In this document: positions 10,940 to 43,066 of the stretch, piece by piece
Position numbering within the stretch: position 1 is the stretch's first letter
Layout: every line of letters begins with the position of its first letter
Source of the DNA: Heliopora coerulea
Taxonomy: Eukaryota > Cnidaria > Anthozoa > Scleralcyonacea > Helioporidae
Direction of reading: 5' to 3'
NCBI GenBank assembly: GCA_030142905.1
Contig: JASJOG010000003.1
Span: forward strand, 2,354,001-2,418,000
DNA: 64,000 nt
Notes under the pieces: model-generated
Database searches by the model: none
Seen by the model: the letters and a program-made list of their open reading frames with translations, nothing else
Told to the model about the DNA's origin: nothing
Made by a program: the position numbers and the translations under genes

Positions 10940-11927
10940 CTTGGATAATGCTTTGGCAACAAATTCATTTTCTGGGTCGATTAGAAGAAACTGGAGATGT
11001 GCTACAGCAGCTTTTGAGTAGTTCTTCAGTCCAAGAAAGGCACAAGCTTTACGATAGAATCCCTGAAAATGAATATATGAATAAATGGTTTTGGCTTTTT
11101 TTGCCTTTTCAATGGCAACCTTGAATTAGGTGTATTCTTAGTAAAATTCCTTCACTACTACACACCTTCTCCCACTTTGGCATTAAGCAGCACACTTTTT
11201 CTGCATAATCCAGAGCTCTTTGATGATTACCCAGAGCAGATGAAACATGTGACAGATTACTCAATATTAAGTGGTTATTAGGATCTAAAAGGAAGTAGAA
11301 AACAACAGTTTTACTCAAGGAGTAGATCTTAAAACAGGTACAAGTATATTAAAATAGTAAATTATGATATAATATGCACACTGTGTTACAAACTTAAAAT
11401 GTCCTTATGAAACATATTAGCCAGAGGGTTTACCCAAACTTATCTTTTTAAAACCAAATCTGCCCAGAACAAATTCTTTCTTCTATACTTGACATTTGAT
11501 TTCATAATGCAGAGTACACATGAATATTTACATGCATGCATGCACTAATGTGCATGGATATATATATATATATATGTATATATGTGTGTGTGTGTGTGTG
11601 TGTGTATAAGTAAATTTCATCTTACTAAGTGTAGGTATGTTCCACTTTCAAGTATGAAAGAGGTATATCAATATTGCAAACCAGGTCTCCAATTAACATC
11701 ATACTTGCTGTCTGAGACCCTATAGTCTAGTGGTAAAACAACTGTACTGGCAATTGGGAGACTTGGGTTCGATTCCCATTAGGGTATTTAGAAATTTTCT
11801 GAGATAAAGCTTGAGAACAAACTTTTCATCATATATATATATATATATATATGATATATATATATATATATGATATATATATATATATATGATATATATA
11901 TATATATATGATATATATATATATATA

Positions 11928-19726: not shown

Positions 19727-19870
19727 TCCGCTTAGGTCGCACATATATGTCGAACTTCTACCTTAGCCCACCATCCGAGTCTTGGTAGCTCAATGGTTAG
19801 AGCGTCTCACCGGTCATCAGAAGGTTGCGGGTTCGGTCCCCGTCTGGGGCTCAGAAATCGTGTTTAAACA
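19727..19870 (+). mobile_element. tRNA-derived SINE copy
   Basis: The conserved 5' lead is followed by GGTAGCTCAATGGTTAGAGC (A box), GGGTTCGGTCCCCGTC (B box) and the start of the tail, CTCAGAAATCG. It has no plausible cloverleaf with a sound acceptor stem, so it is a SINE rather than a tRNA gene. Confidence 0.7.
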
Positions 19871-21112: not shown

Positions 21113-22200
21113 TTAGATGATCAAGCATGTAGTAGAGGAGGTGGAACTCTTCTCTGGCTTATTTTTCTCAAATTTCAGTTTTATTTCATCGCCCGTTCTC
21201 TTCGTCTCGTCTTTATCCACATGATTGCAAGCAGTGACCTTATTTGGGGCTGTCTCAATACTTTCCACGACATCCTCATCAAGGGCACAATTGTTTTCAA
21301 CGCCTAGCTTTAATTCTCCTTCCGACGTGTTTTCTAGAATCTTTGACGACGTTTCCAAGGCATCACACTTTGGATCACTGTTTGTAGCAATAACTAAAAT
21401 TTCATCTTTGTTATCAGACTGATGGCTCTCTGCGTCATTAAGCTTCAATGAAGTTTCCTTTGATCGTTGGATACATCGTCTCAGATGAAAGAAGTTGGCA
21501 AACTTATCGTGCAAGCCAATGAGTAAACACTCTCGTCCCGCCATCCATTCATGCAAAAAGTGTGCAGCGGTGAAGAAACAATACACGATATTTTGCGGGC
21601 ACGTGCAGGACGTCAGTAAGTTGGCTAATTCTGTCGAAGGCATTTCTTTCAGTTGTGCAGGTGTTTTAGTCCACTGATCATCTTCGCAGTTAAAAAAACT
21701 GGGAAATATGTGCGCATAGGTCGGCTTGTCTGGCAGTTGGTCTAATGTAATTGCCAGGAAACACAAACTGGAATTATTTCTTTGCCTACACCAAGCAATG
21801 TTTAGTTCATGGACTAATTCAGGGGATTTCATAAAGCTGCTGGACAGCAAAGGAATGATTAAACGGGCTTGGTCAAGGTAGGACAAGCGGGCTGAGTTGT
21901 TTTCGTCAGAAGAACTCTTAATAATTAGCGATGGATTTTCAGAAAGAATCAACCGACGCAAAAGCTGACAATATTGAGAATCTTCTTCTGAGGAAATGAT
22001 ATAAACGTCTTCATTGGTTGATAAGTTCTTGGGAGTGATTGCAGAACTAGGTAGGGCATAACCAGCACAATCCACGTCAGCGACAACTAAAGAAGTAAAA
22101 TGATTTTCATCTTGAAAAAGGAGGGATCGAGTTTCCTCTAAAACAGATGCCAACGACATCATCTCTTTTTCTTCTACGAAGCTTGGTTTGTTTTGTGGTT
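21113..22200 (-). CDS. Last exon of the macro-TIR gene: TIR3 and CaaX tail
   Basis: The acceptor is TTCATTCAG/AACC, in phase with the G left by the previous exon 9.6 kb away. The exon encodes 361 residues. Residues 506-565 are a linker. TIR3 carries SARLIIPLLSSSFMKSP-like beta-D/alpha-D features (actual local sequence QARLIIPLLSSSFMKSPELV) and the VHEL segment that aligns with the WVHKE of SARM1. TIR3 is the most diverged of the three. The last hundred residues are rich in Glu, Lys, Asp and Ser and look disordered. The protein ends CLII. Confidence 0.88.
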
Positions 22201-25200
22201 CTGAATGAAGATAAAAAATATGCAACTTATTTGTGTGACATTCGCTTGTAGAGGGCCAGCAAACAATCTATTTTGACGCGTTGAATTGGTCAACAAATTA
22301 TAAAGTCCATATGATAAACCTTACTCATTGGCTCAATCTACAGGCCACCAAACACTAACGTAGATACACTAGATAAAATTCACGACTTTTACAGATTGTG
22401 ATCGAAAAGACTTTGTAATGGTCGGTGATTTAAGTCGTGATTTTCTTACTTAGACTAAAGCTAGTCATACAGACTGAATGGTATGCTTGAACTATTTCAA
22501 ATAAAACAAGTAATTACTGACCCAACGAGAATTACAAAAGATACTGAAACTCTGCTAGACTTGTTTACGACTAACTCACTTGAAAAAAATAGTAGTTCAG
22601 GGAATATCGAATACGTAGACATTTGACACTGTCGTCATTGAAAACGTTTTAACGTTCTTACGACGACGTAGATTTCTGGAACTTTAACATCTCCAAGTCA
22701 AGTTCATCGGAGGCTGTTGATTAGACGTACTTTGCAAACGCCAGGGATTGTAGGAATTGGAAAAGAAAATATATTTACACTTTACTCCAATGTCAACGGT
22801 CCTCAGTTTCTTCCTAACATAAAATTTAACCTTGCCATCTAACACCGTATCCGTTTTAGGGCCAGTTTACATGGATGGACGAAGCGACAGCCGGGACCAT
22901 ATAAGCAGCATCCCGTCTACGCCAGGACGATATTATGCTGAGTTTGCAGATATTGAATCGAGACATTTCTCGCTTTTTCGCCCCCCCCGTAAGAAATGAC
23001 CCAGATAAAATCGCTAAAGAACGTCTTGTTCTCCGGAACTGGTCAAAACCAATACTTCTGCCAGACAGACGACCAGGGACCGGAAATCCAAGCAAGACAA
23101 GAATTCTAAAGTTGTCATGATCTTATTACAAGGGTTGTAAATTACTATTCAGATTTTTAGCAGGGATTTAAAAAATTTACTGTACGCGCTCATTCTAATA
23201 CTAAAACGCAGGTAAATGTACGTGCAACATGCGTCTCACCACTTTACAATATTATAAACAGGTCTGGCACTATAATATTCCTGCATATTTATCAAAGGAC
23301 ACTCAGCATTATATAATTATGGGGTGAAAGCGTTTAGCATTCCGACATTGTTTTGAGGGAGCAAACTTTTATGTTCGACCTTTTGTAAGAAAAAGTTTCT
23401 TTCGCAATCTAGTCTTTATTTCAATTCACTAGTCTGCGGAATTTAATATCTATGACCTGCGAGCCTCAAATAAAATTGGTTACATTCAGTGCCGGATTAA
23501 CGAGTCACTTGGGGCACATGCTCTAGGGCCTCCACATAAAGGGGTCCCCCACATAGACAGCTTCACACAAAACAATAATAAACATAACATAATAGCTATA
23601 CGAACAACAGGAACAAGGACAATAATATAAACAACAATTACAACAACTTCTATAATAACTATATAAATATTAAAATATTCTGGAACTGCACCTCCTGATC
23701 GACAGCAGCTAACACTAGTGCACTACAAAAACATTTGTTCAATCAGACGTTATGGTTTGAAAGAACCATAAAACCGGTGAAATCGAGTTGTTTACAAATA
23801 TAAGCAGCTCCAGAGGCACAAACACGGGGCACGCAAGTACCCTAGTGGAGCACAGAAACTATAGCAAACAACAAAAAAAGAAGGTCGTATAAACTCTGTT
23901 GTTTAGAAGTCGAGAAGGCTACAGACGTTCTGTATTAGCCAACTCATCGGCCACCGATACGCGTTCAGCATTAAGCCACGATGACAATTTGAAATTAGTT
24001 GAATCGAAAATTGATCAAAATCAGACAACCATTTTGACAGCTGGAAAGACATTAACGAGGCCATACATTCTGGAACTTTGACTTCCCAACTGTTATCATG
24101 CACCTCTGTAAAGCCAGTAAAGATTGGTTAGATTATCGATAAACCTTCGTCAAACCATAACCTCAGAAAAACGATTTCGGAGCCCCAGACAAGGATCGAA
24201 CCTGTAGCCTTCTGATGACCGATAAAGCGCTCTAACCATTGAGCTACCGAGACTCAGATGACAAACGCACGTGCAAGTACGAACTTATGTGCTGCCGTTC
24301 TATCCTCGTCTCGTGCTCAGAAATCGTTTCTCTGAGGTTAGGGCTTCAAAAATGTTCATTGATCATCGACGATATCTCGAAGCTCTCACATCTACAACAT
24401 ATAACCACCTAACGATTGGTTAATTTAACAATTCTTTCAACGGAGACTGGTGTTTTGGAGATCACTGAACGTGTATGAAATTCTCTCCTAATTTTTTGCA
24501 GCCAAAACAAGGAAGAAATACATCCAAATCGAGGATATAGATACTGGAATGTCATACTAGTATAGTATGAGTTAACTGGTAAAGCACAACCAAACAAACA
24601 TTAGCTGGTAAGTTTGCTGAATATATCCTCAGTGTGGTCAATAGTGTGGAGTAGCGCTTGGAGAATCTGTGTGTGAAGATGAGGACGCCAGAGTTGACAT
24701 TGTCTTGGGTGGGAGACTTTGAGTCACTGAAGGAGTTTGCAAATACGAACTTGAAATTGGATGGTGAGTGGAGTTCTCCTGGAGGAGACAAGAAAGTTTT
24801 TACATATGCCGATGGGCTCTTGGCGAAAGAGTAAAAAATCATTGACAATTGAGGGTAAGGAGATTAACAGACTAAAGCTTAAACTGTGTTCGTTGGTCTG
24901 CGAAAGTGTCTTTGAAGGTGAACATGCCTTGACTGAAGCCGTGAACCATAGTGAGAATCCTTGTTCCTGCAGATGTAATGAACTATTGGTCGATGTCGAA
25001 GGTACTAAACTGGATGTGACTATTGCTGAGCGGGAGATTAGGCATAACACTAATTCTACTCAGAATATTTAGAACGGCCTAAAAAAAATACGCCAAGAAA
25101 TTGGCCAGATGAAGAAGGAATCCCTTAGAATTCATCAACAGTTATGCCATGTTAATTTCATCATCATTTGAATATTCAAATGCTGAAGATAAGGAAAACC

Positions 25201-28200
25201 CAAGGGAAAAGAATTGGCGATATGATAACTCAAATTCTACAAAAGATGTCACCATTAATGAAAGAATTATCTCCAAGTCACTCCATCCTGGGGAGAACCA
25301 CAATCCTAGTATTAATACATACGTTCCAAACTCAGTTAGATGAATACAGAGAAAAGCATCGACAAAGGCGTAGGCGGGCTGACGCACTTTGGATAGAACC
25401 ACAGCGAACACGTCCTTCGGCAACGTTATTAGTCAACGAAACCCAAAATTATGAAATACCGATTCATATAAACCGTTATGAATCTCTACCAGATGAAGTG
25501 CCCCATGTATGGCCAGCTTTTGACCAAGAGTACATGACAAATGCACCAGCTCACAATATACGTTCAAAAGTCAGATCGCCAGCTATAGAGCAGCACATCA
25601 GCTAAAGCATAAAAAAACTACAAAAACGAATAAGAAACGAAATATCGAGCTGTCTCGACAGCGTGAGCAACCAAGTACTAACGAAAGAAGAGTTCTACTG
25701 GTCGGCGACTCGACGATTACACATGCAACACACGAAAATTGAAAGAGCATTTCGTGGGAAAGCAACTTGTCAAGTTTATAGTGGAGCAACCTTGAAAGAC
25801 ATACAAAATAAGATTAAAGGAGGATACAATTTGAAAAAACCGCATGTCTTCTTACCATCGTTGGAGGTTTCAATGCATTAACGGTAATCCGTCATGGCTG
25901 TTGAATCAGTTGGTAGCTTACTGTTAATAGCAAACGTTTACAAGATGGCCAAAGTTTAAGATTTAATATTGGAGTTTGATTTTATCGAAGGTTTATTCGT
26001 TTTATTGGAATCGTTGTTTTAGTTTGATCGAGACGGTTGTGAGATCTTTTATTTAAGGTACAAATCGACCTTCAGTGCTTCCGAATTTCTTTGTTGCAAT
26101 ATTATTACCAATAAGGCTTTGTACGTAAGGCAATGCATTTTATAGTAGGTATACGTTAAAACAGTAAGTAATGATGTGATTTTATGTATATCTTACTAAT
26201 CCACGCATCATTAAGTTTCTTTTGAGACGTCTATGGTCTTTGCATTGCCAGCCATTTGGGAGTGTTTTTTGGGAAATAGTACACAGATAAAAACTGAAAG
26301 CTAATTGATTTCACTTGTTGATTGCCTCTTGAAAAAGGTATCAACATTCATATTTTGTTCGCGCTCACGCTTATGTTTGGACGCCATTTTGATTTTTACT
26401 ACTTTGGATCGAGGTTTGTTTGTAGAACTAATCCGTTGGACATTTTGTATTTCAGCAATGTGACGCCGAGTTCTTCCCTGGGAACATGCCAAAATCATAT
26501 CTTTTTCGCCATGTTTTGAACGGAAAAAAACTCTGAATACATCGTTGTAGATAGAAAGAAAAAAGTCAAGAAGAAAATTATTTAGGTACTTCACTAAAAT
26601 AACTAAATTATAGCCGGCGGTCGGTGGTGAGGTAGCCGGCGGTAAACTGCCGGTAACCGGCTTCTATTGAAAGCCCTGCTATAACTGGAAGAGTGAATGC
26701 AATGAAAAACCCCACACACAGTTTGGCCACAAATTGACAACAACCCAAATTAGAAATTATTTTATATTTAAACAGCTTTTTGTGGTGTTTACAACTAAAA
26801 TTTCAATTCTCCCTTATTAAAACAAAACGTTCGGTGAGAATAACCTTTAACGGTTTAACAAATGTTTAGAGATCCATTCCCACAATTAAACAACGGATGC
26901 TGGTATCAAGACCCTGTATTAGTTGCTAGCTTGTGGTATTTCGTGCTGTTTTCCAATCAAACTTTTCACTCATTTTGCCCTAAAGTAAGATCTTTTTATG
27001 AGATGGCGAGACTGTCCGTCTTATAAGAGAAGCATTTTCATAGGATACCGGTTAGATATCAGCATTTCGGGCAGCTGATGATTGAAAATTTTTTTGATAT
27101 TTTTTTTCTTAAAAAATTGATAAATTCTACATTATAGATTTAAACTAAGTATTCAACCGACGGTATAAGACTTTAGTGACGAAGATAAAACGAATGACGA
27201 AACCAACAAAATAAACAAAGAAAACATGAACGAATTCTGCAATCTTATTGCTGACCAAGAAACAGAAAATAGAAAACAGGGAAAACAAAATAAGACAAGG
27301 AAACCTGGTAAAACATTTGTGACAACAAAAACGAGTTGACAGAAGCAGAAAAAGTACCTTCTACGTGGCTAAACTTAATGCTTCGTTCATTTTCGAATGC
27401 GTAAAAATGAAAAATACCGAAGAGTACAAACCCACAACTATGGTTTTTTATCGAAGCATTTTCCGGCTCCTCAATGAAAAAGGTTCAACGACAAATTTGA
27501 GGAAAGAAGACGAGTTTAAGCTTACCAGAAAAATTTAAAATCTGGAAGAAAGCAGATGCTGGTTTTATATGGAAAAGAAGATAATATTTGATACAAGAAG
27601 TCTCCCTTAGCGAAGAATGAAGTCGGGAAGCTACTTTAGAAAGCTGCTTAAAACAATGGTCTGCAAGGAAGATTAGCGAACCATTCCGTTCGCGAAACTT
27701 GAATTTCAAGGAATCTCAATTTATACGTGCCTGGAAATTTTGTAGCTCAGCTATATCATAATATGATTACCCAAACTTGAAAATTCTCGATTCATTCAGA
27801 TCACCTTCCGTTCAACGTCAGTGAAGAATATCGTTTACCGTGAGTCCAGGGTCCTCATTAGGTAAAGAAGTAGGAGGTGAATTTGATAAAGTAGACGGCA
27901 AAGAACAACCGTGACACAGCAGACGCCGTAGGCGCAAGACATTCAGGGGGTTGGGGGCATGCTGGGAGTCCAAATTGGTTTGCTTTCGTTTCATGATGGA
28001 TGGTCCACTAAATCTAAATGAAGAGCGTAATTCCGTGCATTCCTGCCATTGAACTCTAAAAAGACTGGGACGATACCTGCAAACTGTATTTTGAAGCTAT
28101 CATGGAGGCTGACATGTGGGTCAATTTGCAGGTCATCCCAGTCCCATACGCGATAAAACACGCAATCTATTGTGAAAAACGTCACCCAAATTTCGGATTT

Positions 28201-31200
28201 TTTTGACAGTTTTCTTTTTTGTCCTTAGTAAAGTGGAAGACAATGTCGTCAGGACTGCATATTTGTTAGAATTAACTGTACAATTTTCAGTACAATTTTC
28301 CCCCACGCGTGTTTTTGACCCACGTGGCTACCCCCATGTCGGCTTCACTCAGTTGTAAGGCCAGACCAGTGAACTCAATTTCCATATCTGGAATGCTAAC
28401 TCCCAGTCATTCGATCGGGCAAAAAATGAAGCCAAGATGGCCGCCCATGGAGGGAAATTTTGGACGTCAGTTTCAGTCCTCTTCGCGGTCTTGTACGTTA
28501 GTTCCAGTCCTTTACACGACTTTAGTCTTAAATTTTTGTTTGGTTTGGCTTCGAAAACATTCCCAACCATGGAAAAAGTGTTTAGACAAATTGCCACTTG
28601 ACCAATTTTACGTAATCGAGTATTTAAAAGGATTCATTGTTGTCGTGTGGCCTAAAAAGTGTACTAAATTGTCTGAAGATGGTAAACTAACGGTAAAAAA
28701 AGGACTTCCACTTTGCAGTTTCTTCAAGTAACTTTTCGTAACCGTTTAATCAGGTTTCTCGTATGTCTGGTAATTTATTTTCGTGAAAATATATAACCTG
28801 CAACTCGGTTTGACTTTGTCGAAATATATTTAAAATTCTTAAACTTATTTCTATATTTTGAAGACATGTTTTGTGTGTATTTCCAAAGAAAACTCGTTAG
28901 AAAATGTAAAAAGTCGCGTGGGAGACTAAAACTGACGTACCATCCCGCGTAGGGGACTGAAACTGACGTCCAGTTAGCATTCCAGATATAGAAATCGGGT
29001 TCACTGGGCCAGACATAACGAGGTATCGTTCCAGTCTTTTTAGAGTTCACTGATTGTTGCATGCACGATGAGATCTCGGTTCCAATCCTTTTTCTCTGAA
29101 TCTAGTTCCCAGTCCATGCCGAAAAAAATGGAGGATGATGTTGACAAAGCACGATCTGTCGATGCGCTGGTATTTCAAGTCATTTTCAAGTGTTTAAGAA
29201 TTTTTTTCTTTAATAAAGAAAAGTAGATGGCGAACATTTAGGAAGTAGACGGCGAACTTCGCCGGTCACCGGCTCCTAATGAGAACCCTGGAGTACGTCA
29301 GCAAATGTCCGGGCAACAAGCACCAGCTCGAGTTTCTTTACGGCTTTTGTAAATATTCATCAGAAAGAACAAAGTCAAAGCCTCGCTGTAAAAAGTGGTA
29401 AGTTGGGCATATTCCATGGAGCTAAGTTTGAAAACTACTCTTTCAAAACCCAAGTCTTGAATGGTCCTGTTACCAAGATAGCCTCAAAAACTGAAACCAG
29501 TCGTAAGCACGAACTCTTTTTAAAGAGCGCCACTTCGTGAGCTGGTGTTCAATCGTTTACTGGCTTCAGTGTTCAAATGATGTAAACAACTTCGCAGAAG
29601 TAACTCAGTTTGACGTTGTAGAAATATATTTGAAGTTGTTAAACTCATTTCTATGTTTTGAAGAAATATTTTGTGTGTATTTTCAAACAAAAACTTCTGA
29701 GGAAAGGTAAAAAGTCGCGGGGGAGACTAAAACTGACCTACAAACCTGCGTAGGGAACTGAAACTGACGTCCAAAATTGGCCACCATGGGCGGCCATCTT
29801 GGCTTCACTTTTCATTGTCCAGTTACCATTCCAGAAATGGAAATCGAATTCACTGGTTTGTATATATGTAGGTATCTATCCAAGGATTCCGGTCACTCAA
29901 GTATGCCGTGTGCAAACTCGGGGACTGGTATGTTGTCGACAAAACGAGAGGCCGAATTGAACGTTACTGGTCTCCTTTTTTCGCTTTTATGGACTTCTGC
30001 GAAGTTGTTTACACCAATTGAACACTGAAGCCAGTAAACGATTGAACACCAGCTCACGAAGTGGCGCTCTTTAAAAAGAGTTCGTGCTTACGACTGGTTT
30101 CAGTTTTTGAGGCTATCTTGGTAACAGGACCATTCAAGACTTGGGTTTTGAAAGAGTAGTTTTCAAACTTAGCTCCATGGAATATGCCCAACTTACCACT
30201 TTTTACAGCGAGGCTTTGACTTTGTTCTTTCTGATGAATATTTACAAAAGCCGTAAAGAAACTCGAGCTGGTGCTTGTTGCCCGGACATTTGCTGACGTA
30301 CTCCAGGGTTCTCATTAGGAGCCGGTGACCGGCGAAGTTCGCCGTCTACTTCCTAAATGTTCGCCATCTACTTTTCTTTATTAAAGAAAAAAATTCTTAA
30401 ACACTTGAAAATGACTTGAAATACCAGCGCATCGACAGATCGTGCTTTGTCAACATCATCCTCCATTTTTTTCGGCATGGACTGGGAACTAGATTCAGAG
30501 AAAAAGGATTGGAACCGAGATCTCATCGTGCATGCAACAATCAGTGAACTCTAAAAAGACTGGAACGATACCTCGTTATGTCTGGCCCAGTGAACCCGAT
30601 TTCTATATCTGGAATGCTAACTGGACGTCAGTTTCAGTCCCCTACGCGGGATGGTACGTCAGTTTTAGTCTCCCACGCGACTTTTTACATTTTCTAACGA
30701 GTTTTCTTTGGAAATACACACAAAACATGTCTTCAAAATATAGAAATAAGTTTAAGAATTTTAAATATATTTCGACAAAGTCAAACCGAGTTGCAGGTTA
30801 TATATTTTCACGAAAATAAATTACCAGACATACGAGAAACCTGATTAAACGGTTACGAAAAGTTACTTGAAGAAACTGCAAAGTGGAAGTCCTTTTTTTT
30901 ATCGTTAGTTTACCATCTTCAGACAATTTAGGACAGTTCTCAGGCCAAACGGCAATAACGAATCCTTTTAAACGCTCAAATACGTAAAACTGGTCCAAAA
31001 ATATTTCGTCTGTGCACTTTTTCCATGGTTGTGAATATTTTCGAAGTCGAACCAAACAAAACCTGAAAATCAAAGACGTCTCTCAAATTCATTAATAATT
31101 CACGAAGAAAAACAAAAAGAAATACATAATTAATCAGCAATTAGAAATCGGAGGAAGATTACAGCTGAATTTTTCCAACTTTCAGTTGGATTTTCGCCTA

Positions 31201-34200
31201 AAATACTGGTTCGTTTGAGAAGTAATTTCAAACACTCGTTTAGTGTTCTTCCTCCGATTTCTAGATACCTCGAAACTCGTTAAAAAAACTCGGCTTCGCC
31301 TTTTTTTTCCAACCAGTTTCTCGGTATCTAGAAATCGGAGGAAGAACACCAAGTCGCACTTGAAATATTACGTAAAGGACTGCAACTGATGTACAAGGCC
31401 GTGAAGAGGACTAAAACTGACGTACAAAATTTCCCTCCATGGGCGACCATCTTGGATTCACTTTTTGCCCGGCCAAATAACTGGGAGATAGCATTCCAGA
31501 TATGGAATTTGAGTTCACTGATACAAACATAGACACTGCGAAAATTTTTCTCCCTAGTCACCAAGCGTGTAAATGGACTCCACGCACGTCGAGATTAGTA
31601 CCATCGCACCGCGCTTTGCGCAGTGGGCGAGGGGAAAATAAAGAAACATATACGCGCTGCAGAATTTTTCACCCTAGTCACCACGCGAGTAAATGGACTC
31701 CACGCATGTCGAGATTAGAACCCTCGCACCGTGCTTTGCGCGGTGGGCGAGGGGATTAAATAATGATATTCTTACCTTTCAGTTCTCTCACGATCTGTGT
31801 GCAGACATCAGCTATGACAGTGCTTTCTTTCTCAGGCGTTTGTTGGAAACTCTTCAAAGGTGAAAGTAAGCTTAACCATTCTATGCTCTCAATTAATGGC
31901 TCAATAATAAGAGGCAAAAGTTTGGAATTATGTTGTTGCTGTAACACCATGGACAAGCTGAATTCTTCAACACAAACTTTAGAACGGAGATAATCACCGG
32001 ATATCAAAGCGATCACGAATTTGGAACAATCTGTCAAGGACAAAGTTGAAATATTGAAGTGTTGAGCCAAATACTTTCGAAATCACAAAATGACACAACC
32101 ACAGCATAGATTTACACAAAGAGCCACATAAAAACACTTTAATTTTTTATTTTTTCATTGGGTATTACATGAGATGTTGCAAGTGTGATTTCATCACTTG
32201 AACATCTACTTAGTTGGTTTTTACAGAACTTTTCCCTGCTTTAACAACTGCTTTTAAGCAAGGATACCTCACTAGACAAAAACTAGAAAGAAAAACTCTT
32301 CATCAATCAGAAATCTAGAAGTCACGTAACTTAAGGGTTACTTAATGTGGTTCCACACGGCTTCTTGAAAAATGGAAGTAGGAAAGTTTGACCTCGAAAA
32401 AGTTGTAAATGGATATTTTTGAGGATGATATATAATATTTTTATTGGTAGAAAAACATTTTTGGCATGAGAAAATATTACCGAGAAGTGATTTGCAAGTA
32501 CTATGGCAAAAGAGACATTTCAAAATGGCTGCAAATCCCCATTTAACCTTAATTCGAATATAAGTTCCGTGAAGATCGTTTTCTCTTTTCTCCATTAAAA
32601 CTTTCTAAGATCACTTTACTAAGTAACATTTTTGATGTAAAAAATGGTTTTCTGACTATCACAATGTGTTTCATTCTCCTCACAAATATTCATTTACCAT
32701 TTTTTTGAAGGTCAGATTTGCATTCGTCCTGTTTTTCAAGATATCACCGGGAGTAACTTTAAGCGAACCATACTACAATATACTACCTTGTATCTCACCA
32801 AGGCATGTACAACCCTGTATGGCATGCTGCACAATTAAAGCAATAAAGTGGTAAAGGTCTGGCAAAGTGACTTTCTGACAAAGAAAGGGATTTTTGTGAT
32901 TTTTATTCGATGATGTTTTGTGGCTAACCGAGCCATTTCTACGAATGACGTTTCGTTAATCCAAAAATTAAATGAACGACTCCGCATACACGTCAAACTG
33001 TATTTCCTCTATTTGGCAATTTTACTTTATTGGTATCTTGCTGCTCCATATTCATAATCATGTGGATTCAAAAAACTTGTACTTTTAATATTACCCTATG
33101 ACTAGTTCGAATATTTACCTAAAGCTTCATACAATGTTTGCTGCCATGCACCTCCAGCTTTTAATTCGGCTGTATCGAGGAAAATATTGATATTTGGTTG
33201 TTGGATTCGAAGTTCTTTCATCACTTGTTTAGCCTTATCTTCATTGCGATGACAATACGACAAAAACACATCATAGTTTCCTTTCTCAGACTCATCTTGA
33301 CCTGAGGACTTCAGTGGTGTGGATAAAAGCCAGCTGACAACTGTGATGCAGGCTACACTTATCTTTTCTGCACTGTTGATTCTAGAAAAACAAAAATAAT
33401 AATAATAATAAACAAGATCATCAGGAAAAACATACATATATAACAACACGATACGGTAATCGAAAGTGAAATAACTCTCGCAAACCTCTTACCTGCAGTC
33501 AATGTACTGTGTAAGTCTCATATAGGTCGGCATGTATGGAACTTCAGTCACATATAAAGGAACCAAAATACTCTGATTTTCTTTACGGCTGTGACATAGT
33601 GCAATGTTGTATTGCTCAGTGCATCTTGGAGACCTCAAGTAGGACGGAGAGATTAAAGCCATAACGCGTCTGCAGTTTGTTATCGTACTGTACAGCTTTT
33701 CTTGCCAAGATTCTTCCTCATCTAGCTCTTGTATGGTGGAAAAGATTCGCAAATCACTCTTGTTTTTCTTTAAACCATGTATAACTTCAACCAAATAATT
33801 TTTGTCTTCTTCGCTGTACGATAAATAAATGTCATAGGTTTCCACACTTACCTACGTTATAAAAAGTTGGAAGATAAGAGTCTTACCCTTCAAGTGCTAA
33901 ATAACAGTGTTGAACAGGGAACGTCTGAAAAGTTGCTGGGAGTTCGAATTGACACTAACTTAACTTTTGATGACCGTATTGATGAATTAAGCAAAAAGGT
34001 AGCCCAAAGGATTGGTGTACTTAAGAGTATAAAAAGGAACCTCCCAATTAAGGAACGGAAGCTCTTTTATAACTCCATGATTAAATCAATAATGTTATAT
34101 GGTAGCACGGTTTGGGGCTCCTGTTCAAACGAAAGTATTGACAAAATATTCAAGTTGCAGAAAAGAACCACCCGTGTGATCCTCGATGCGGACATGAAAG

Positions 34201-37200
34201 AAAGAAGTAGTGTAATGTTTAAAAAACTTAACTGGTTACCAATTTGAGATAAAATTGCAATACGTAAATGTTGCCTAATATATAAGGGAATCAATGGTGG
34301 TGTTCCTGATTATATTGATGATATCCTCAAAAGGAATGCAGATCTACACACGAGGTCAACCAGGAATGCATCTATACATTTACTTTGTCCTAAATTTAAA
34401 GAGAGACTGAAGGGGGAAGAACCTTTGAGGTTACTAGCGCAAGATTGTGGAACAGTATTCCTGTAGACATTAGGAAAAAGAACTGTTACAGTTCCTTTAA
34501 TTTGGCCATACGTAAATATTTTCTGGTTAAATAGATGAAAATAAATAATGTCTTTCTATATTCTAATTTAACTAGCTATTGACAACATCTAATTTTAAAC
34601 TGTTCATATTATTTTGCATAAGATAATTTATTTATATTGATTTTATAATTATTTAGATTCATATTTCATAATTGAATTTCTACTCATTGTCAATGTTTTA
34701 CCGATATTTCATATGTTTATATTTATCATGCATTTATACATGCGAAGTATCTTATTTTGAGGGCCATGAGTGCACCAGTGTAAACTGGCAAATGTTACCC
34801 TGATTAAATAAAGTTTAATATAAAAACAAACAAAATCTTCCATTGATATTTCTAAAGAAGACACGTAAGAACGTGAAACGAACCAATTCTTGTAAATATT
34901 ATAAAAATAACAGCAACAAAATCTTGGCGTTATTAATGCTATCAATGGGTTGGACATTTAAATTCAATCTGCTTCTAAAATTCATCGGCAAGAAGATAAG
35001 CGATCAATCAAAGAAATATGTCTATTTTACTTCATTTATCGAAAGCTGATACCTCTGTTAACTTCCTTCACCCATTAACTGCCTTTATCAAGATTAAAGA
35101 GATGTCATTTCAAAGACATTTGATTAACAAACCATGCAAAATTGGTTTGCTAAAATACAGAATGTAGGTAACAGGCTACAGCTTCTACTTATTTCTGTTC
35201 GTTAAACTTAATAAACAACTGAAAACGTATCCTGTTACTTACGGTAGATCTGTGTTCTTCCACTTTTACCGCGTGATTTTCTTTCAAATTTTGGAATAAC
35301 TTAATAAGAAGTTCGTTGTCGGAACTTTTTTTTGTGATATTTCTTGAAAATAGGACAATCTTCAAGCACCGCAACGGTAACCCGGCCTTTATCCAGTGAA
35401 CGGCAGCATTAACAAGCAGCTTAAGCATCAGTTTCTTGGAAAATCGCTGCGTTGAAAAAACCCGCAAAAAGAAAACAAAACAACAAAAAACTTTTTAGAC
35501 AGAAAAGGCCCTCATATTCCTCACCTTATACCTTCGAAAAGCAGCAGTATCAGCTCTTTAAAAGACCAGTAGACGATCCGATTAAGGAAGGTAAGATAGA
35601 AAAAATTTGGTGGGGAAGAGAAGGAGGAAGAAAGTACGAAATTTAGAAAGCGAGAGCAGACAGGGGTGCAAAGCAGGGAGTGAGAGATAAAGGGAAGAAA
35701 ACATTTATATCAGGAAAATTGAAGGAGAGGGAGAAAATGTAAAAGGAGAGGAGCGAGACAACAAAAAAGAGACTGAAATTCATGCAGTCAGGCAAACAAA
35801 GTTGAATTGAATTACATGTATTTCAATATGTCAGTTTTGAAATAAATGTTATTCAATTCAATTCAATTCAAATTCTGCCACTTATATCATGTTTTAGTTT
35901 GTCAGGTTAAACTATTTTTCTAGTATTAACTATGTTCAGAATGTAATACGATACTATCGACCATAATTAACTACAACCTAATGTTCCGCGAAACCGACGT
36001 GGAAGCTCAATGTCAAAGTATTGATGTGTATGGACGCAGGAATTTTTTTTAACCTCGACGGGTGTTAAAGTCGTGAACGTTTTGATCGCGGCAGAGCTAC
36101 TCTGACTGTTGATCTACATGCACAAACTCAGTAGAGCAACAGTTACAATGTAATGGAGCTTTCTCTACCAGTGAGACTTATGTACGCATGTTCACAGTAA
36201 TATTCTCACCTGGTCTCCTGATGCCAGTAGAGGCATGATAACTTTTCCTTCTTTGTTGCCCAAAACCGGGACCAAACATCGGAAAACATCTCCAACAACT
36301 TCCCCAAGCTTCTTTCGAGGATCGAAACTTTTACATATTAATAAAATAACAAAGTAAATAACCAATAAATCACCGGTTAAAATACGGAAACGAGTATACT
36401 ATGGAGAAAAATGGTCTCTTTTACGCATGTTTTTGCACTGTATTCATTTATCGTGAGATAATTCTTGAACGATAGATTCAGAACTACTAAGATAGTTATT
36501 AACACTCACCTTGTGCACAGGAATGTGGTTGTATGTGTCTGTATACGTGAGGCGGTTAGTTAATGTGTTTGTTTGTGCATGCACGTGCTGTCGTTCCGTT
36601 AACCTTCGGTTTAATTTTCTTTTGTTTTGAAACGGTTTACTTCAACAACCAGTCCAATTTTTTTGAAGCAACTCGACTTTTTTAACCAATTTGACTTTTT
36701 TATTTTTAGAACGGTTTGATTTCTTTAAGCAGTTCAGTTTTTGAACCAGCTTAATTTTATTGAACCACAACAGTTGTTGACAATTCGAGTGATTTCATAT
36801 AAATTTTTTAAAACAAGCAAAATATCCCTACTTCTCATTCTTCCACTTTACCTACACCCTCTCTTAAATATCGCCTTCCTTTTATTTTTTAATGGTTCAT
36901 TCTTCTCTCTAACATGCTTCTGTACAATCTATGTTGCTTGAGTCATTTACCCACTTTCTTACCAATCAGGCTAAACTCAAAACCCCGTTTACACTGTTAA
37001 CATTTTGTGCACGGCACGGTTAAAATTTTGCCATGGATGCCGCTGGTTTTGGGCACGGCATGGGTGATTTTCAGTGTAAACGACGCGGACTTCTTAAAAT
37101 TTAGCCATGCCGAGCACCTTCGTATATGTAGGTCTCGGCACGGCTAATCGGCCGTGTCGTGCCCAAAATGTTACAATGTAAACGGGGTTCAAGCTACCAT

Positions 37201-40200
37201 AACAATTAAACCCCGTTTACACTGAAACATTTTGGGCACGGCACGGCTAATCTGACCAACATATTAAGAGTTGCTCAGTACGGCTAAATTTTCAGGCACG
37301 GATATCAAATTTTAAGAAGTCCGCACCGTTTACACTGTGAAGATCACCCGTGCCGTGTCCAAAAATAGCGGCATTTGTGCCAAAATTTTAGCCGTGCGGT
37401 GGCCAAAATGTTAACAGTGTAAACGGGATTTAAGTCGTCTAATCTGTCGGGCCACATATACATCTGCTTACTTAAACACCATATCCATCGAATTAAAAAC
37501 TAATCTGGGAATCAGGACAAACTACGATCAACCATTTGACAGTTACGTAAAGATGGATTCAAATCTGAGCCATAAGTTAACCGAAACAAATTAAAATTGA
37601 TTATCATGTTTGCAAACGCTGTCCCTGACTCTATAATCTTAACGTAAGGTTGTGTTCGGAACAATATTAACGTGATGATTAAAGCGGACATGGCTGGAAA
37701 ATTAAGTTTGATTTATTTGAAATTAGTAGCGTGGCCAGACCTACACTTTTGGGAGGCCTTGTCGGAACGTAGACACGGCTACAAAGAATTTTGGCCATGG
37801 GAGTATACCTACTGATTAAATTTTGAATTTTAGATGCCCCAGATACTAATTCGAGGCAACCTAAGATGTTTTGTGTAATATTTCAAGCAATAATCTTATC
37901 AGTCCAATGAACTTTGGGGAGACTAAGGTCTCCCCCATTGGCCATCCATCCACGGTTCATCCAGTACCGCCGAGAGCTGTTGCGAGCCCCGGGGGGAGAG
38001 GTGGAGAAGTTGGTAGACCCGTACAGTCGAAAGTTAATTTGACTGAACTCACTAACTATCGGGCAGAATGAAGAATGGTGTTCTCTAATTTTCTGAATTT
38101 TTCATGAGACGTTTAATTTGCACAATGAATCCACAGTAATGCACTAACGCCCACTACATGAATTTCACAAATAACATTACTGTAATATTTAAAGACCGAG
38201 CAGAAGTGCTTTATCGGATCAAACACGCGCGGAAAGTTTTTATATATCGTATAAAACGAGTCTCATAATACGCTAATTCGCGAAGAAAGTTTGGAAATTT
38301 TTGTTTTCTAAGCCGAAAAAATTAACTTCTTAATCACATATAAATTCAAATGCGTCCTTATCACATATAGACACTACACCAGGGATGTGCTCAGAAAATT
38401 TTGAGTGCCGGGTAGAAACTAACTGCACTATCGAAGCCAAGGCAAGGAGGACCCGGGCGGGATTCTGAAAATTTGATTCAATGCCGGGCGACAGTGTGTA
38501 CTACCGGGCGGAATCACTCGGTGCCGACCGGCGTGAGCACATCCCTAAGAAACGGTTAACATTTTCCATTGTATTTTTCTTATGAAATCTTAAAAAATCT
38601 AGCTGGTTAAAAAAAAGAAAAAATCAAATTGATTAAAAAAGTTGAACAATGTGTAAAGATTGAACGACTACATATGTAAGACGAGGGGGTGGGGTTTCTC
38701 AGAGATTAACTTCAGAGGTTATCAAGTTACAGTATCTATGATAATGATAAAATGTTTACTGGAACTCATATTATGTGATATGGTGATTTGATTGGGTTCA
38801 TTTGACCAGCAATAACTGTCAACCTAAGACAAAAAACAGTTGAATCATGTACCAAAATACAAAGTTACAGTTTCCCAGTTTTTGAGCTTATTAACCTAAA
38901 TCCCCCACTACCCTTGTTGAGTGTTGTTTCAATACCACTACATTGTTGTTTCAGACATCTTGCAAAATGGTTTGCTAGATGCAACAAGTTGTGTAGGTTG
39001 CCACAACTGTTTTGTACAGTTATAGATCTGTCACAACTCCCCAATTTGCAAAATAGGTCTAGCTCAGATACCTGTATATGGCATTACCTTTTGTTAGCAG
39101 CACTAAGACCAACATGGTCAAGGTAGATGAACGATCTTCAAGCTCAATACTCAGAAAATGATTTCTGAGCCCCAGATGGGGATCAAACGCACAACCTTCT
39201 GATGAGACTGGTTTTCTGAGTATTGAGCTTGAAGATCGTTCATCTACCTTAATATATCCAAGGTCTCACGTTTCTCAAATATCAAACTACACCAACATGG
39301 TCACTTGGAAAAAAAGAACACAAACTGAATAACTACTGCCATATCATCAAGGAAATATAAAAGACTGAGTTGTTCATTGCTGGCATACCTCTTCTGATTC
39401 AATAGATAACCCTCGACCCAGCAAGTACAATTTATTCTGTAGACAATAATTATGTTACTCATCCAAAGCATGGATAATATGGATTGTGCATCTGTGTACT
39501 AATGTCCTCCTGGATAATTATCCCACTACAAATGACCAGTCACTGATTTGCTACAGTTGATGCTGCCTAATCAATATGCCTTACCGTCCTTCAAAACAAA
39601 GAATTTTCCCAAAACTGAAATGGTCAGGTAATGGTTTTGACCACCAACATGAATATAGTTGTCTTAAGTCTTCTTCTTTGTCTTTTGCCAATTTTTTGAC
39701 ACTAAGCATAAGCTTCTGCTGTAACTGTCCAATTAAAGAACTTGGAGTTGGGCTATAGTCACCTAGCAATAAAGAATTATTAAAGTAAGAGGATATCTAT
39801 AATGAACAATATAATACATTCAACTGAACTATTATCATACTGATTAATTCAAACATACTACAGTACATAATTAATTTGAACATCTGGAGTGGGAACTGCT
39901 GTTTTAATGTGATTGTTAAACAATGTCAGGCTCATTTGCAACAGAACATTCAATTACCACTCAAGAAAATTAATACCAATGATAAGTAAACCTGAAAATA
40001 TATAACATACATCAACATAGGAAAAGCTTTCACCCTTTCATGTCTAAGATATCTCCCCTTGATGAGTAAAATCATCTGGTGTTAGCCAGATTAAAATTAA
40101 ACAGTCAGATACTGACTAGAAAGGGTTAATCTGGTTCAGACTTTGCTGTCAGAATATATGGTCTCCTAGTTAGAAACCAATTCTTGATACTAAATAGTTT

Positions 40201-43066
40201 TGATTTTCTCCTCACGTCAATACTTTGCCAAAGTTTAAAGTGTTATAATCTTAAATTTCCAGTGGCAAGATAAAAGATTGAAATAAAAAACATTTTACCT
40301 GTAAATTAAAAACCTATAGGTGAAACATTGTGAAAACCTAGATATATAACTGCAAGAACATTTCAGAGCTACCCTCCTCAAATACATGGAATCTTGACTG
40401 TCTTGAAATGTGATTAAAAATATTAGCAAACTCTCTGTTTATTTAGTATCTCATCAAAGTTCAGGGGTTTTTTTATCATAGTGGTAAAGAGAAAATCAAC
40501 ACATAAGCTGGGAAAGTACTTCACAATGCAGCCCTGCATTGGCCTTCTGAACATTATTACACTTTATCTTAACAGAAGTTCAGTGAAGACTAAAGTATCA
40601 CTGGTCATCTGTGTTAATCCTCTTTGGGTCTTTGAGCATACTCCATTGCTATACTACAGGTAGGGATGATAGATTTAAAGAATAATCAAGATATTATATG
40701 GGTGGAATATGTAGGCAAAGTTAGGTGACATGATAACAACATCAATAAACTTAAGAACTCTGTAATTGTCACCATAATTAACATTGGACCAGAATAAAGA
40801 ACCAAAACAATTAACAATGAATGAATAAACTTTAAGCCATTTGAACCAGAACTCTTTCCTATAAAATTAAATGCTAGTGATTCAGTAGTCAAATATAGAA
40901 TTATTACAATTTTCCTAAATTTGTAGCTATTTTACCTGTTACTTAAAAATTGATATCTTAGGTACTTTCTATATTTTCTACATTCGAAAAATCCATCCAT
41001 ATTTCTTTGAAGACATTTTCAATTCTAATCAGTGTAGTATATACACTTTTACTTCATGACATAACCACCATATTGATGTTCTTTAACAAATGGATTTTGA
41101 TGATTTTCTTTTCTTAAGTACACCAACATGGCCTCCATCCACATTGTCATTCGAATCTCTGGGAATTAAGTGCAAATGTACCCTTAAAGAAAAATGTAAC
41201 TTAAAACTACTAAAAAATTGTCAGTTTTTTTGCTTTTTGATCACGTCATGATAACAACAGCACATCATAAAATAATAGGTCTTTATGGTCATATGCCATC
41301 TATGAGTAATTATTTTTAATCTAATTTTTATCTAATTTTATATAATGTAGTAGTATCTAATTTTATATAATGTAGTAGTATCTAATTTTATTTAATGTAA
41401 TTAAAAGTATGTAGTAGTAGTAGTAGTAGTAGTAGTAGTTAGTATAATTTTATTTGTATTTATAAGGTATCATGCCCCTCCTGTAAATCAGCTTAGTTCA
41501 AAAAGTTGTGAGAGGCTAGCGTGTATAAATAAAAGAGATGTCTGTCTGTCTGTCTGTCTGAGTAGTTGTACTGTAGTGTGTTCTCACATCTGTGGAGTAT
41601 TATCGGTATTTTTTGATTCTAACCTTCCCTAGCAACATTTGATTGTCTATGAGCCCATCTTTTACCAGTTCAAAATTCCAACATTGGAAAAAATTTCAAC
41701 TTTTTGACACTTTTGGGTGTTATTTAGACACCCCTGCCCTGTAGCCACAATGCCTTTGTCCCTACCTGTAGGTTGCAACTTCATATCTTTAATATAAAAT
41801 ACAAAAGAAAATCATAATTGTATCACGTCTTAATATGTGATAGAGACACACAATTTAGATGGGAAGAAGAAGCTAATTTTTTCAGCTCAGAAAACCTAAG
41901 TTTGCAAACATTCTTCACAAAGAAGGTTCATTTTTGAAGACATCTAAAAAACTTGCATTATGTAGATGTGACCACTAAGCAGGGGTTTTATATGCAATAT
42001 TTACATTGACAATACTTTTGGGACTATGACAACTGGTCACTTAAAAGGTAGCCGTCTAATAGGGGTTCAATTGTTTACCGGGATATATATGTAATATTTA
42101 AAAACCAAGAAGGAGTGCTTTAAAACACAAGGAAGTAGTTGAGTGTTTTAGATCCAATAAAGCATGTACTGTGAGTTTTTTTAGATATCTCCTAAAATGA
42201 ACCTCCTGATATGCAAATTTGCAAAAAAATGTTTGGAAATTTTTGTTTTCTAAATCAAAAAAAATTTAACTTCTTCTTCACATATAAATTCATATGTGTC
42301 TTTATAACATATACAGACATGGCAAGATCATGATTTTCTTTTGTATTTTCCTCATGAATTCTTAATCAATTTTAGAAATAAAAATATAAGCCCCTTTTGT
42401 ATATGGGGCTGGGCTTAGACCTAACCCTAACACTATAAAATGACTGCCTATGTGGCTAGCTTTTAGCCACAGAGCCATTCAACAATACCGTTCTCACGGT
42501 GTCGGGTATTCTATAATTGTGTCCAATAAGTAACCTCTGCTTTCTAAATATTACAGTTATGTTCTTAAATCTTAAATTTATTCTAGTATGGCATTAATTA
42601 TTTCGTATATCTTAGATGCTCCATATTAGGTCACAATTTCTTAACAATTCTAGGTTTCAATTGTTTCTTAACGCGCTTAAAATTAACCTTTGCATTGATT
42701 CGTTACGTAGAAGACGCGCTAAATACATCGTTTACAGGTTGTATACTGCAAACCAAGAACATGGAGCATACAGGCCTTACGCTCTTGGTATGTCGAGTCG
42801 ATGTTTTTTCCAGGTGATTAAATTTTAGTATTTGATTTTTTCCGATGACAAACAAGCCTTCTTTAAGCAAAACAGGTATTCAAGGATATTAACCGCAAAC
42901 GCATCCCTTCAAATAAATTGAAGTTACCTGGAAACGCCGATGTAACGAGTACATCAACTTTGTCTTCTTTTGGTAAAGCAGTAATATCACCTACGCAAAG
43001 CTGGATTTGACATTCACCGGTATCAGTAGTCACTGGTAAAGTATCGACGACGAGAATTCCAGCCAT
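21113..43066 (-). CDS. Macro-like domain plus three TIR domains, C-terminal CaaX; eight exons, 867 aa
   Basis: The exons on the minus strand are 43066-42928, 39762-39585, 36327-36210, 35446-35243, 33851-33493, 33381-33119, 32030-31776 and 22200-21113. Every junction is GT-AG and phase-consistent, summing to 2604 nt. Residues 17-213 form a macro-like domain: VGDITALP and VDVLVTSAFPGDYSPTPSSL near the start, VIMPLLASGD (about 136-145) in the middle, and LKIVLFSRN near the end. TIR1 (about 218-345) begins YDIYLSYSEED, TIR2 (369-505) begins YDVFLSYCHRNED, and TIR3 (about 569-680) begins DVYIISSEED. Each TIR keeps a Glu at the position of the SARM1 catalytic Glu (E292, E442, E637). After TIR3 come a helical stretch, a charged low-complexity tail and a terminal CLII, a CaaX-like prenylation signal. 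The product has no signal peptide or membrane segment, so it is probably cytosolic and membrane-tethered. A role in NAD-derived innate immune signalling is inference; adaptor-only scaffolding is the alternative. Introns are filled with transposons. Confidence 0.9.
22390..22740 (+). pseudogene. LINE endonuclease (EEP) fragment
   Basis: Across shifting frames the plus strand reads FVMVGDL, then LNGMLELFQIKQVITDPTRI and TETLLDLFTTN. This matches the GDFN...PTRIT...LLDLI block of LINE apurinic-like endonucleases. Stops interrupt it. Confidence 0.6.
24155..24400. mobile_element. Inverted pair of the same SINE
   Basis: A minus-strand copy (24163-24290; inverted B box GGATCGAACC and A box TTGAGCTACCGAG) is followed by a plus-strand 3' half (TGCTCAGAAATCGTTTCTC and a tail to about 24400). 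The arrangement matches that at 17101-19694. Confidence 0.65.
24679..25890 (+). pseudogene. LINE ORF1-like remnant with SGNH-hydrolase motif
   Basis: The plus strand begins TPELTLSWVGDFESLKEFAN and LDGEWSSPGGDKKVFTYADG. A coiled-coil-like stretch (TIAEREIRHNTN, then LKKIRQEIGQMKKE) follows, and after a charged linker RRVLLVGDSTITHATHEN, then GATLKDIQNKIKGGYN and VGGFNAL in other frames. GDS, GAT and GGFN spacing resembles the SGNH/GDSL esterase domain found in ORF1 of some animal LINEs. There are several frameshifts and stops. Confidence 0.5.
25891..28366. other. Intron sequence, no exon seen
   Basis: Part of the 9.6-kb last intron of the macro-TIR gene. GCCGGCGGT/ACCGGC clusters (26612-26681) resemble the ends GAGCCGGTGACCGGCGAA near 29265 and 30322. 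Confidence 0.4.
28367..31520. repeat. 3.1-kb imperfect palindrome (large foldback element)
   Basis: The left arm, 28367-29601, is inverted in 29993-31520. The inner parts (about 28700-29600 against 29993-30890) are nearly identical, and both arms encode the same 95-codon open frame. The outer parts are more diverged. The right arm has an extra block at about 31090-31365. The spacer (29606-29860) contains a further diverged direct copy of the segment at 28798-29010. It lies in the last intron of the macro-TIR gene. Confidence 0.85.
31143..31347. repeat. Small nested inverted repeats (AGAAATCGGAGGAAG)
   Basis: The motif AGAAATCGGAGGAAG occurs at 31143 and 31330, and its inverse CTTCCTCCGATTTCT at about 31249. 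The last pair encloses a hairpin ending GGTATCTAGAAATCGG. The block is present in only one arm of the larger palindrome. Confidence 0.6.
31539..31756 (+). repeat. Two tandem copies of a roughly 115-bp unit next to an exon
   Basis: Both copies contain GTAAATGGACTCCACGCA, GTCGAGATTAG and CTTTGCGC-GTGGGCGAGGGG. They end 20 bp from the donor end of exon 32030-31776 of the macro-TIR gene. No coding content is seen. Confidence 0.7.
33119..33851 (-). CDS. Two exons of the macro-TIR gene carrying TIR1 and the first half of TIR2
   Basis: Exon 33851-33493 starts VSVETYDIYLSY and contains box 1, the BB-loop region (STIQELDEEESWQEKL) and the segment with the conserved Glu (RCTEQYNIAL). Exon 33381-33119 starts with a linker, INSAEKISVACITVVSWLL, and then NYDVFLSYCHRNEDKA of TIR2. 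TIR2 is cut by an intron just after the WQQTLYEAL helix and resumes in exon 32030-31776 as DCSKFVIALISGDYL. The acceptor of exon 33851 directly abuts a LINE fragment on the opposite strand. Confidence 0.88.
33858..34830 (+). mobile_element. 5'-truncated LINE, reverse-transcriptase C-terminus and 3' UTR
   Basis: From 33867 a plus-strand frame reads LLGVRIDTNLTFDDRIDELS, then LFYNSMIKSIMLYGSTVWGS and KIFKLQKRTTRVILDADMKE, the post-palm (thumb) region common to non-LTR reverse transcriptases. A TGA at 34246 and a frame change follow; SARLWNSIPVDIRKKNCYSS completes the typical C-terminus near 34530. The fragment is antisense to the macro-TIR gene and begins beside its exon at 33851. Confidence 0.8.
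35577..35830 (+). repeat. Purine-rich tract
   Basis: About 250 bases with a strong excess of A and G (GGAGAGGAGCGAGAC and similar), in a macro-TIR intron; a (ATTCA)n run lies at 35850-35870. Confidence 0.7.
36980..37189. mobile_element. MITE with CCCCGTTTACACTG ends, copy 1
   Basis: Starts AAACCCCGTTTACACTGTTA and ends ATGTAAACGGGGTT. The interior has repeated GGCACGGCT motifs on both strands. Lies in a macro-TIR intron. Confidence 0.75.
37208..37431. mobile_element. MITE with CCCCGTTTACACTG ends, copy 2 in opposite orientation
   Basis: Starts AAACCCCGTTTACACTGAAA and ends CAGTGTAAACGGGATTT; its end matches the start of copy 1, so the pair lies tail to tail, 18 bp apart. Confidence 0.75.
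38178..38370 (+). repeat. Interspersed repeat, copy 1
   Basis: Shares TTGGAAATTTTTGTTTTCTA, GCTTTATCGGATC-like and CACATATAAATTCA-T-TG blocks with 42089-42320 in the same orientation. This copy is CpG-rich and the other CpG-poor. Confidence 0.6.
38380..38546. mobile_element. Short MITE, about 167 bp
   Basis: The left end CAGGGATGTGCTCA is matched in inverse by TGAGCACATCCCT at the right. GGGCGG-type repeats lie inside. Confidence 0.65.
39120..39280. mobile_element. Truncated inverted SINE pair
   Basis: Tail sequence TAGATGAACGATCTTCAAGC, the inverted head fragment GGGGATCAAACGCACAACC, then the tail again in the other orientation, GCTTGAAGATCGTTCATCTA. CpG sites of the consensus are partly lost (TCAAAC for TCGAAC). 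Confidence 0.65.
40031..40129 (+). repeat. TTAACCCTTT repeat copy, CpG lost, both ends present
   Basis: CACCCTTTCATGTCTAAGAT at the left and AGAAAGGGTTAAT at the right; the core GATGAGTAAAATCATCTGGT has lost both CpGs. Confidence 0.7.
41318..41570 (+). repeat. Cluster of simple repeats
   Basis: Three copies of an ATCTAATTTTATATAATGTA-like unit, (GTA)n at 41408-41440 and (TGTC)n at about 41540-41562. Confidence 0.9.
42089..42320 (+). repeat. Interspersed repeat, copy 2 (CpG-poor)
   Basis: Same family as 38178-38370; GGATCCAATAAAGCATG replaces CGGATCAAACACGCG. Confidence 0.55.
42928..43066 (-). CDS. First exon of the macro-TIR gene, with start codon
   Basis: The ATG at 43066 lies in a reasonable context (GCAATGG). 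The exon encodes 46 residues and ends in phase 1 at CCAG/GTAACT. It contains the VGDIT motif that begins the ligand-binding strand in macro domains, then VDVLVTSA, the counterpart of the family's VDAIVNAAN. The canonical Asn is replaced by Ser or Ala, so ordinary ADP-ribose chemistry may be altered. Only about 110 bp separate the start codon from a pogo-like transposon. Confidence 0.85.

Follow-up and report, generated by a model that had tools for sequence, protein, structure and literature searches.

Does one animal gene really place a macro domain and several TIR domains in a single chain, and what might such a protein do? The question arises from a 64,000-nucleotide stretch of Heliopora coerulea (assembly GCA_030142905.1, contig JASJOG010000003.1, positions 2,354,001 to 2,418,000 of the forward strand), hereafter the window. 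From the letters alone, the original prediction had read there a gene of eight minus-strand exons and 867 codons without phase conflict, encoding a macro-like part, three TIR domains, a charged tail and a CaaX-type end. In ADP-ribose signaling, macro domains stand on the reader side and TIR domains on the writer side, and the two meet in bacterial anti-phage systems. Our analysis showed that this is one gene, that its product is a member of a widespread animal family without a proper name, and that homologous proteins exist in bacteria. Its second TIR domain is probably a nicotinamide adenine dinucleotide (NAD)-cleaving enzyme (NADase).

The macro and TIR parts are encoded by one gene

The gene was rebuilt independently from the sequence. 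The rebuild gave eight exons, all on the minus strand and with the same outer coordinates, which join into 867 amino acids with a single terminal stop codon and a C-terminal CLII (Table 1). All seven introns have GT-AG ends, with outgoing phases 1, 2, 0, 0, 2, 1, and 1, and the macro part again ended at codon 213. A hidden Markov model (HMM) was built from 52 relatives, with the window protein left out, and compared with the 1587 six-frame window segments of at least 25 amino acids (independent E-value, iE, ≤0.1). Eight segments matched, and these are exactly the eight exons (iE 7e-14 to 3e-53), all on the minus strand and in the order of the model, from its position 3 to its position 858. Because only these eight collinear segments were picked from 1587, the gene model is not a chance reading.

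The closest relative, P0001, shows 60% identity across 99% of the query, and its alignment spans all seven exon junctions, the last of them with a gap of two residues. This relative carries all the parts in one frame of 925 amino acids on a contig of 2,980 bases, suggesting that its source has no introns, a transcript being the simplest case. P0010, P0016, P0017, and P0040, with 766 to 961 amino acids each on contigs of 2.7 to 3.2 kb, are most simply transcripts as well. The layout given in the original prediction is right, and neither of the two outcomes that it named as refuting was seen: the fold prediction came out as macro (below), and macro and TIR parts share one frame in P0001.

The assembly (430 Mb, 769 contigs) was searched with P0001, and the 17 matches comprised the eight window exons, eight at a second copy and one weak TIR match on contig C761. 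The second copy (G000:C223:2305966-2323809, loci L028-L029) lies inverted on the opposite strand and has counterparts to all eight exons, five of which are equal in length to those of the window gene. Its introns are GT-AG in all seven cases, with phases identical to those of their window counterparts. The retention of splice sites between two diverged copies gives independent support to the gene model. The second copy may be decaying, since an in-frame stop interrupts its exon 7 and no CaaX box closes its last frame.

The protein belongs to a widespread animal family

Named relatives were found in Dendronephthya, Montipora, Nematostella, Rhopilema, Ptychodera, and Saccoglossus, as well as in several echinoderms, Lineus, Tubulanus, Lingula, Haliotis, and Bugula. 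The same domain order recurs across animal phyla (among P0002-P0046, in Nematostella, Strongylocentrotus, Saccoglossus, Lingula, and others). Among the matches listed there were no names of vertebrates, insects, or nematodes, which does not imply absence, as the searches scored limited candidates. In NCBI the family proteins are named "uncharacterized" or "hypothetical," and some carry the UniRef names "TIR domain-containing" or "ADP-ribosyl cyclase/cyclic ADP-ri...". The original prediction knew of no characterized animal protein with this layout. That remark fits the literature that we searched, which gave neither a description of a macro-TIR fusion nor a study of the family proteins (an earlier mention being possible), but the layout itself is shared by a whole animal family. 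A 2026 TIR atlas describes, in the part available to us, uncharacterized eukaryotic TIR clades that are also present in cnidarians (PMC13142454). In a term search of its main text, "macro" occurred twice and never as a macro domain, and the term was absent from the searchable text of an actiniarian immunome paper (PMC5094078). One EukProt model, P0011, joins an animal-type macro-TIR frame to glutamate dehydrogenase domains and is probably a merged gene model.

An unrooted macro tree was computed from 68 rows picked from 121 full-length macro domains (P0042 was too short and left out). One branch (100/100) split 25 animal rows, the window protein included, from 43 bacterial or metagenome rows; rows without a species name were labeled animal by the macro tree or by similarity. 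The window protein grouped with P0001 and the octocoral Dendronephthya (99/92), a placement that points to an octocoral as the probable source of the window. The TIR tree held 11 of 14 prepared animals and 23 of 32 prepared bacterial proteins, with partial-TIR rows and near-copies dropped. Across the 11 animals, TIR1, TIR2, and TIR3 each formed one clade (100/95, 100/99, and 100/99), indicating that the three-TIR form was present in the cnidarian-bilaterian ancestor. A single clade of all 33 animal TIRs was not in the best tree and was not rejected (p-AU 0.214).

One TIR domain retains the residues of an NADase site

TIR1 and TIR2 score above the Pfam cut-off, and TIR3 alone falls below it (16.3 vs 28 bits). 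A profile made from bacterial relatives only did find TIR3, both when 46 proteins were searched (E 2.9e-7) and, in exon 8, when the 1587 window segments were (E 2.8e-6), and the idea that TIR3 is a chance reading was rejected on these matches. Among solved structures, the best match of TIR2 is the NADase Cat1 (E 1.2e-6), and TIR1 matches the TIRs of Hydra TRR-2, MyD88, and TIRAP.

The NADase site of Cat1 is described as S7, H8, N9, N10, D33, S68, and E74 of one TIR together with K121 and Y122 of the next (PMC12162218, in the part available). Site residues were placed through the TIR2-Cat1 alignment and a family alignment of 53 animal rows. In the non-gap rows, TIR2 keeps H in 49/49, D in 49/49, S in 51/52, and E in 51/52. 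The corresponding counts for TIR1 are H 0/53, D 1/53, and E 2/50, with Q at the E position in 41 rows. For TIR3 they are H 2/51 and E 47/49, its D column being aligned in only three rows. Of the 74 bacterial fused TIRs, 61 retain the H, 70 the D, all 74 the S, and 72 the E. In the window protein, TIR2 is the only TIR with the full site (H377, D402, S437, and E443). These counts give a pattern for the animal family of one full-site TIR and two without. The earlier suggestion that the TIRs can be NADases fits TIR2, which by its residues is probably an active enzyme, but not TIR1 and TIR3, which look catalytically dead and are probably inactive.

The N-terminal part has a predicted macro fold, and the C terminus is a candidate membrane anchor

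Residues 1-213, previously called macro-like, have a predicted macro fold. Profile relations to known macro domains are weak (AF1521, E 0.0021; PARP14, E 0.0063), and Pfam Macro matched 0 of 14 family members at E ≤1, the window protein being likewise without a match. The macro assignment is therefore based on the predicted fold together with the weak AF1521 match. A residue-level comparison with a canonical macro domain aligned 54 columns, covering the last part only. Within the family, GD[ILV] is kept in 112 of the 121 macro domains and a P[LIV][LVI]xxG-type loop in 95. Pfam, NCBIfam, and PADLOC yielded no name for the macro part or for the whole protein; only the TIR or extra fused parts matched well.

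With isoforms and paralogues included, 29 of the 52 animal relatives have a cysteine at position −4, against one with it at −3 and one at −5; of 75 bacterial or metagenome proteins, 1 has it at −4. No transmembrane span was predicted in the window protein (highest 19-residue Kyte-Doolittle mean, 1.49). Its end residues would suit prenyl transferases, and prenylation of the CaaX box is the likely membrane anchor.

Homologous macro-TIR proteins occur in bacteria

The original prediction called the layout conceptually close to bacterial anti-phage TIR systems. The likeness is more than conceptual, because bacteria have macro-TIR proteins that are homologous to this one. With the macro part of P0003 as query, 44 proteins were found, and with that of P0047, 61, all TIR-labeled (candidate lengths limited to between 0.55 and 1.75 times that of the query protein). 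The forms that carry no animal name include a bare macro-TIR of ~340 amino acids, TIR-macro-TIR, and fusions, several of them sensor-like, with NUDIX, RyR, kinase plus FHA, Hsp70-like, and glycosyltransferase parts. NUDIX is fused to a bacterial-type macro-TIR in P0062 and P0063, and RyR in P0100. A scan of genome contigs gave 10 loci in Cyanobacteriota, Chloroflexota, and Pseudomonadota, nine of which encode macro and TIR as a single open frame. At E ≤1e-40 the unit was recovered from 1 of 194 genomes sampled from the phylum of L001, a Nostoc locus, and from 1 of 400 sampled from that of L008; in both cases this was the seed genome, so that within these two samples the gene is a rare accessory.

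Pfam was run on 20 chosen neighboring genes from nine loci (L001-L009) out of ten, and PADLOC on 12 of these genes. Two of the genes, both adjoining the macro-TIR gene, are suggestive. The adjoining, overlapping frame at L003 has a SLATT-like segment below curated cut-offs; by eye the start of this protein appears SLOG-like, which no tool confirmed, and its comparison with solved structures gave no solid match. The adjoining, overlapping frame at L008 is a NUDIX protein (9025-9660). Among the other 18 neighbors, one matched a candidate-defense model (PDC-M08B, L005) and one, a radical-SAM protein, a viperin-type model (L006); the remainder were unrelated, transposases, or unmatched. In viral contigs, 17 stretches matched a pattern and none was a relative, and plasmid and phage sequences, searched with the single protein P0103, gave no match. 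The bacterial macro-TIR unit is a family for which we found no name, and a defense role for it is plausible.

Features in and around the gene

Table 1. Exons and selected features of the macro-TIR gene, in window coordinates.
Feature	Position	Strand	Content
Exon 1	42928..43066	-	Start codon; macro strands 1-2, GDIT motif; iE 6.8e-21; donor GTAACT
Exon 2	39585..39762	-	Macro; family motif KEEDLR...CWWS; iE 1.4e-31
Exon 3	36210..36327	-	Macro; phosphate-loop-like PLLASGDQ; iE 7.3e-14
Exon 4	35243..35446	-	Last part of macro domain; end at codon 213; iE 7.2e-22
Exon 5	33493..33851	-	TIR1, residues ~217-332; Q293 at catalytic Glu position
Exon 6	33119..33381	-	End of TIR1 and first half of TIR2 (H377, D402)
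Exon 7	31776..32030	-	Second half of TIR2; S437, E443 at catalytic position
Exon 8	21113..22200	-	Linker, TIR3, charged tail, CLII end, stop
TIR3	21647..22012	-	Residues ~569-690; divergent TIR, S631 and E637 kept
CaaX-type C terminus CLII	21116..21127	-	Residues 864-867

The intron between exons 4 and 5, which separates macro from TIR1, measures 1.4 kb and has a phase 0 junction. It contains a fragment resembling the reverse transcriptase of a long interspersed nuclear element (LINE), identified by eye (33825-34466, plus), that overruns the edge of exon 5 on the opposite strand; the first frame of this region had no Pfam match. Intron 7 holds a perfect 907-nucleotide inverted repeat (28695-29601 and 29993-30899) with a 391-nucleotide spacer, outside which lie additional, less perfect inverted arms. 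Transposon remains with DDE_1 and HTH_Tnp_Tc5 matches are located just upstream of exon 1 (43552-44824, minus). Downstream of the gene is a BED zinc-finger frame (18550-19227, minus), on our own reading perhaps part of a hAT-like element. Three places match a tRNA model with modest scores (33-38 bits; 11716-11787, 19779-19851, and 24181-24253) and are possibly tRNA-derived repeats.

Proposed mechanism and alternatives

The best explanation, to which we give about an even chance of being right as a whole, combines these elements as follows; the signaling role in it is an inference, as the original prediction also said. The protein would be cytosolic, with probable prenylation of its CaaX end. 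Its ancestor would be a bacterial macro-TIR unit that came into the animal lineage ahead of the cnidarian/bilaterian split. TIR2 would be the NAD-cleaving domain, and TIR1 and TIR3 would be duplicates whose active site was lost, serving as in-chain scaffold partners that help to build or restrain the composite site of TIR2. The macro domain would sense an ADP-ribose-type nucleotide, which might be the product of its own or another TIR or an ADP-ribosylated target. Ligand on the macro domain would promote self-association, by which TIR2 would be switched on at the membrane. We prefer a ligand-gated TIR2 by analogy with three reports, each available in part. The NADase site of Cat1 forms between stacked TIRs, and ligand on its nucleotide-sensing part maintains the filament (PMC12162218); the macro domains of ThsA bind ADP-ribose or imidazole adenine dinucleotide (IAD) and then self-associate (PMC11204291); and the macro domains of TIR anti-phage systems are predicted to regulate those systems (PMC9503650).

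Several points weigh against this explanation. The NAAN motif and a GGG in the loop region, which we take to be motifs of MacroD-type hydrolases, are each found in 0 of the 121 macro domains, so that ligand binding is not assured; the canonical macro domain of L015 has both. TIR3 keeps the catalytic Glu, and its inactivity thus rests on the lost H and D. The K/Y half-site of Cat1 falls outside the TIR2-Cat1 alignment. The CaaX cysteine is absent from 23 of 52 animal proteins, some of them partial or isoforms. Since the trees are unrooted, the direction of transfer is something that we infer. At L010 the macro domain stands without a TIR within the stretch examined, and no consistent defense neighborhood or partner was seen among the 20 bacterial neighbors scanned.

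A rather unlikely alternative is a non-enzymatic scaffold, in which the three TIRs assemble with TIR adaptors in a MyD88-like manner, the macro domain attaches to ADP-ribosylated proteins, and the lipid end holds the complex at membranes. The loss of the active site in TIR1 and TIR3, the resemblance of TIR1 to the Hydra TRR-2, MyD88, and TIRAP TIRs, and the reported ability of macro domains to read protein-linked ADP-ribose (PMC11204291, in part) would all suit it. However, the catalytic residues of TIR2 are near-invariant across phyla, which a pure scaffold would not need, and an NADase is the best solved match of TIR2.

Improbable to a similar degree is a self-limiting NADase, whose macro domain would capture or hydrolyze the ADP-ribose product of TIR2 in the same chain and so limit the signal. 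In its favor, bacterial macro-TIRs occur together with NUDIX (fused in P0062 and P0063, adjacent at L008) and with RyR (P0100); for TIR anti-phage systems, cyclic ADP-ribose is a predicted target of the macro domains (PMC9503650, in part), and phage RyR-domain proteins degrade ADP-ribose-based signals, according to a paper title (PMC13232231). Yet the missing NAAN and GGG make hydrolysis by the macro domain unlikely, and one capturing pocket per enzyme would be a weak control. Finally, a wrong joining of two neighboring genes, for which the phase 0 junction and the 1.4 kb intron with its LINE-like fragment might speak, was rejected as extremely improbable, given the single frame of P0001, the recurrence of the domain order across phyla and in the second genomic copy, and the fusion of bacterial homologues at nine of ten loci.

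Returning to the ligand-gated TIR2, we tentatively put forward a broader proposal that we hold to be possible, albeit doubtful: early animals may have taken up a bacterial macro-TIR immune unit and kept it, from a time before the cnidarian/bilaterian split onward, as a membrane-tethered, ADP-ribose-gated NADase relay. It would be an animal counterpart of STING-TIR, with a macro domain as receptor of an ADP-ribose signal and with two dead TIRs scaffolding one live TIR. An animal protein that combines both sides of ADP-ribose signaling, and whose one conserved active site and well-conserved macro domain have been maintained since before that split, would provide a direct test case for animal nucleotide immune signaling beyond SARM1 and the TLR route. 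Uncharacterized relatives are present in Nematostella and Strongylocentrotus, animals that lend themselves to laboratory work.

Comparison with known systems

Among animal proteins, MyD88, TIRAP, TLR, and IL-1R also contain TIRs, and TIR1 of the window protein resembles theirs in sequence. The window protein differs from TLR, IL-1R, and MyD88 in being without LRR, Ig, or death domains (Pfam, E ≤1) or a transmembrane part. SARM1, likewise an intracellular TIR protein of animals, also has a site of the NADase type, and its TIR is held to be of bacterial origin (PMC13142454, in part). Whereas SARM1 has ARM and SAM domains, the window protein has neither (Pfam, E ≤1) and carries a macro domain instead.

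In the Thoeris system of transmembrane-macro ThsA and TIR ThsB, a macro domain also works with an NAD-cleaving TIR, and the macro fold is shared (PMC11204291, in part). PADLOC ThsB models match the TIR parts only (best E 8.2e-9, P0001). Thoeris, however, consists of two proteins with a transmembrane effector, whereas the window protein is one chain with no transmembrane span, three TIRs, and a CaaX end. CARF-TIR (Cat1), SAVED-TIR, and STING-TIR are alike in fusing a nucleotide-binding domain to a TIR NADase. Their sensor is CARF, SAVED, or STING, whereas the window protein has a macro fold in that place and two extra, probably inactive TIRs.
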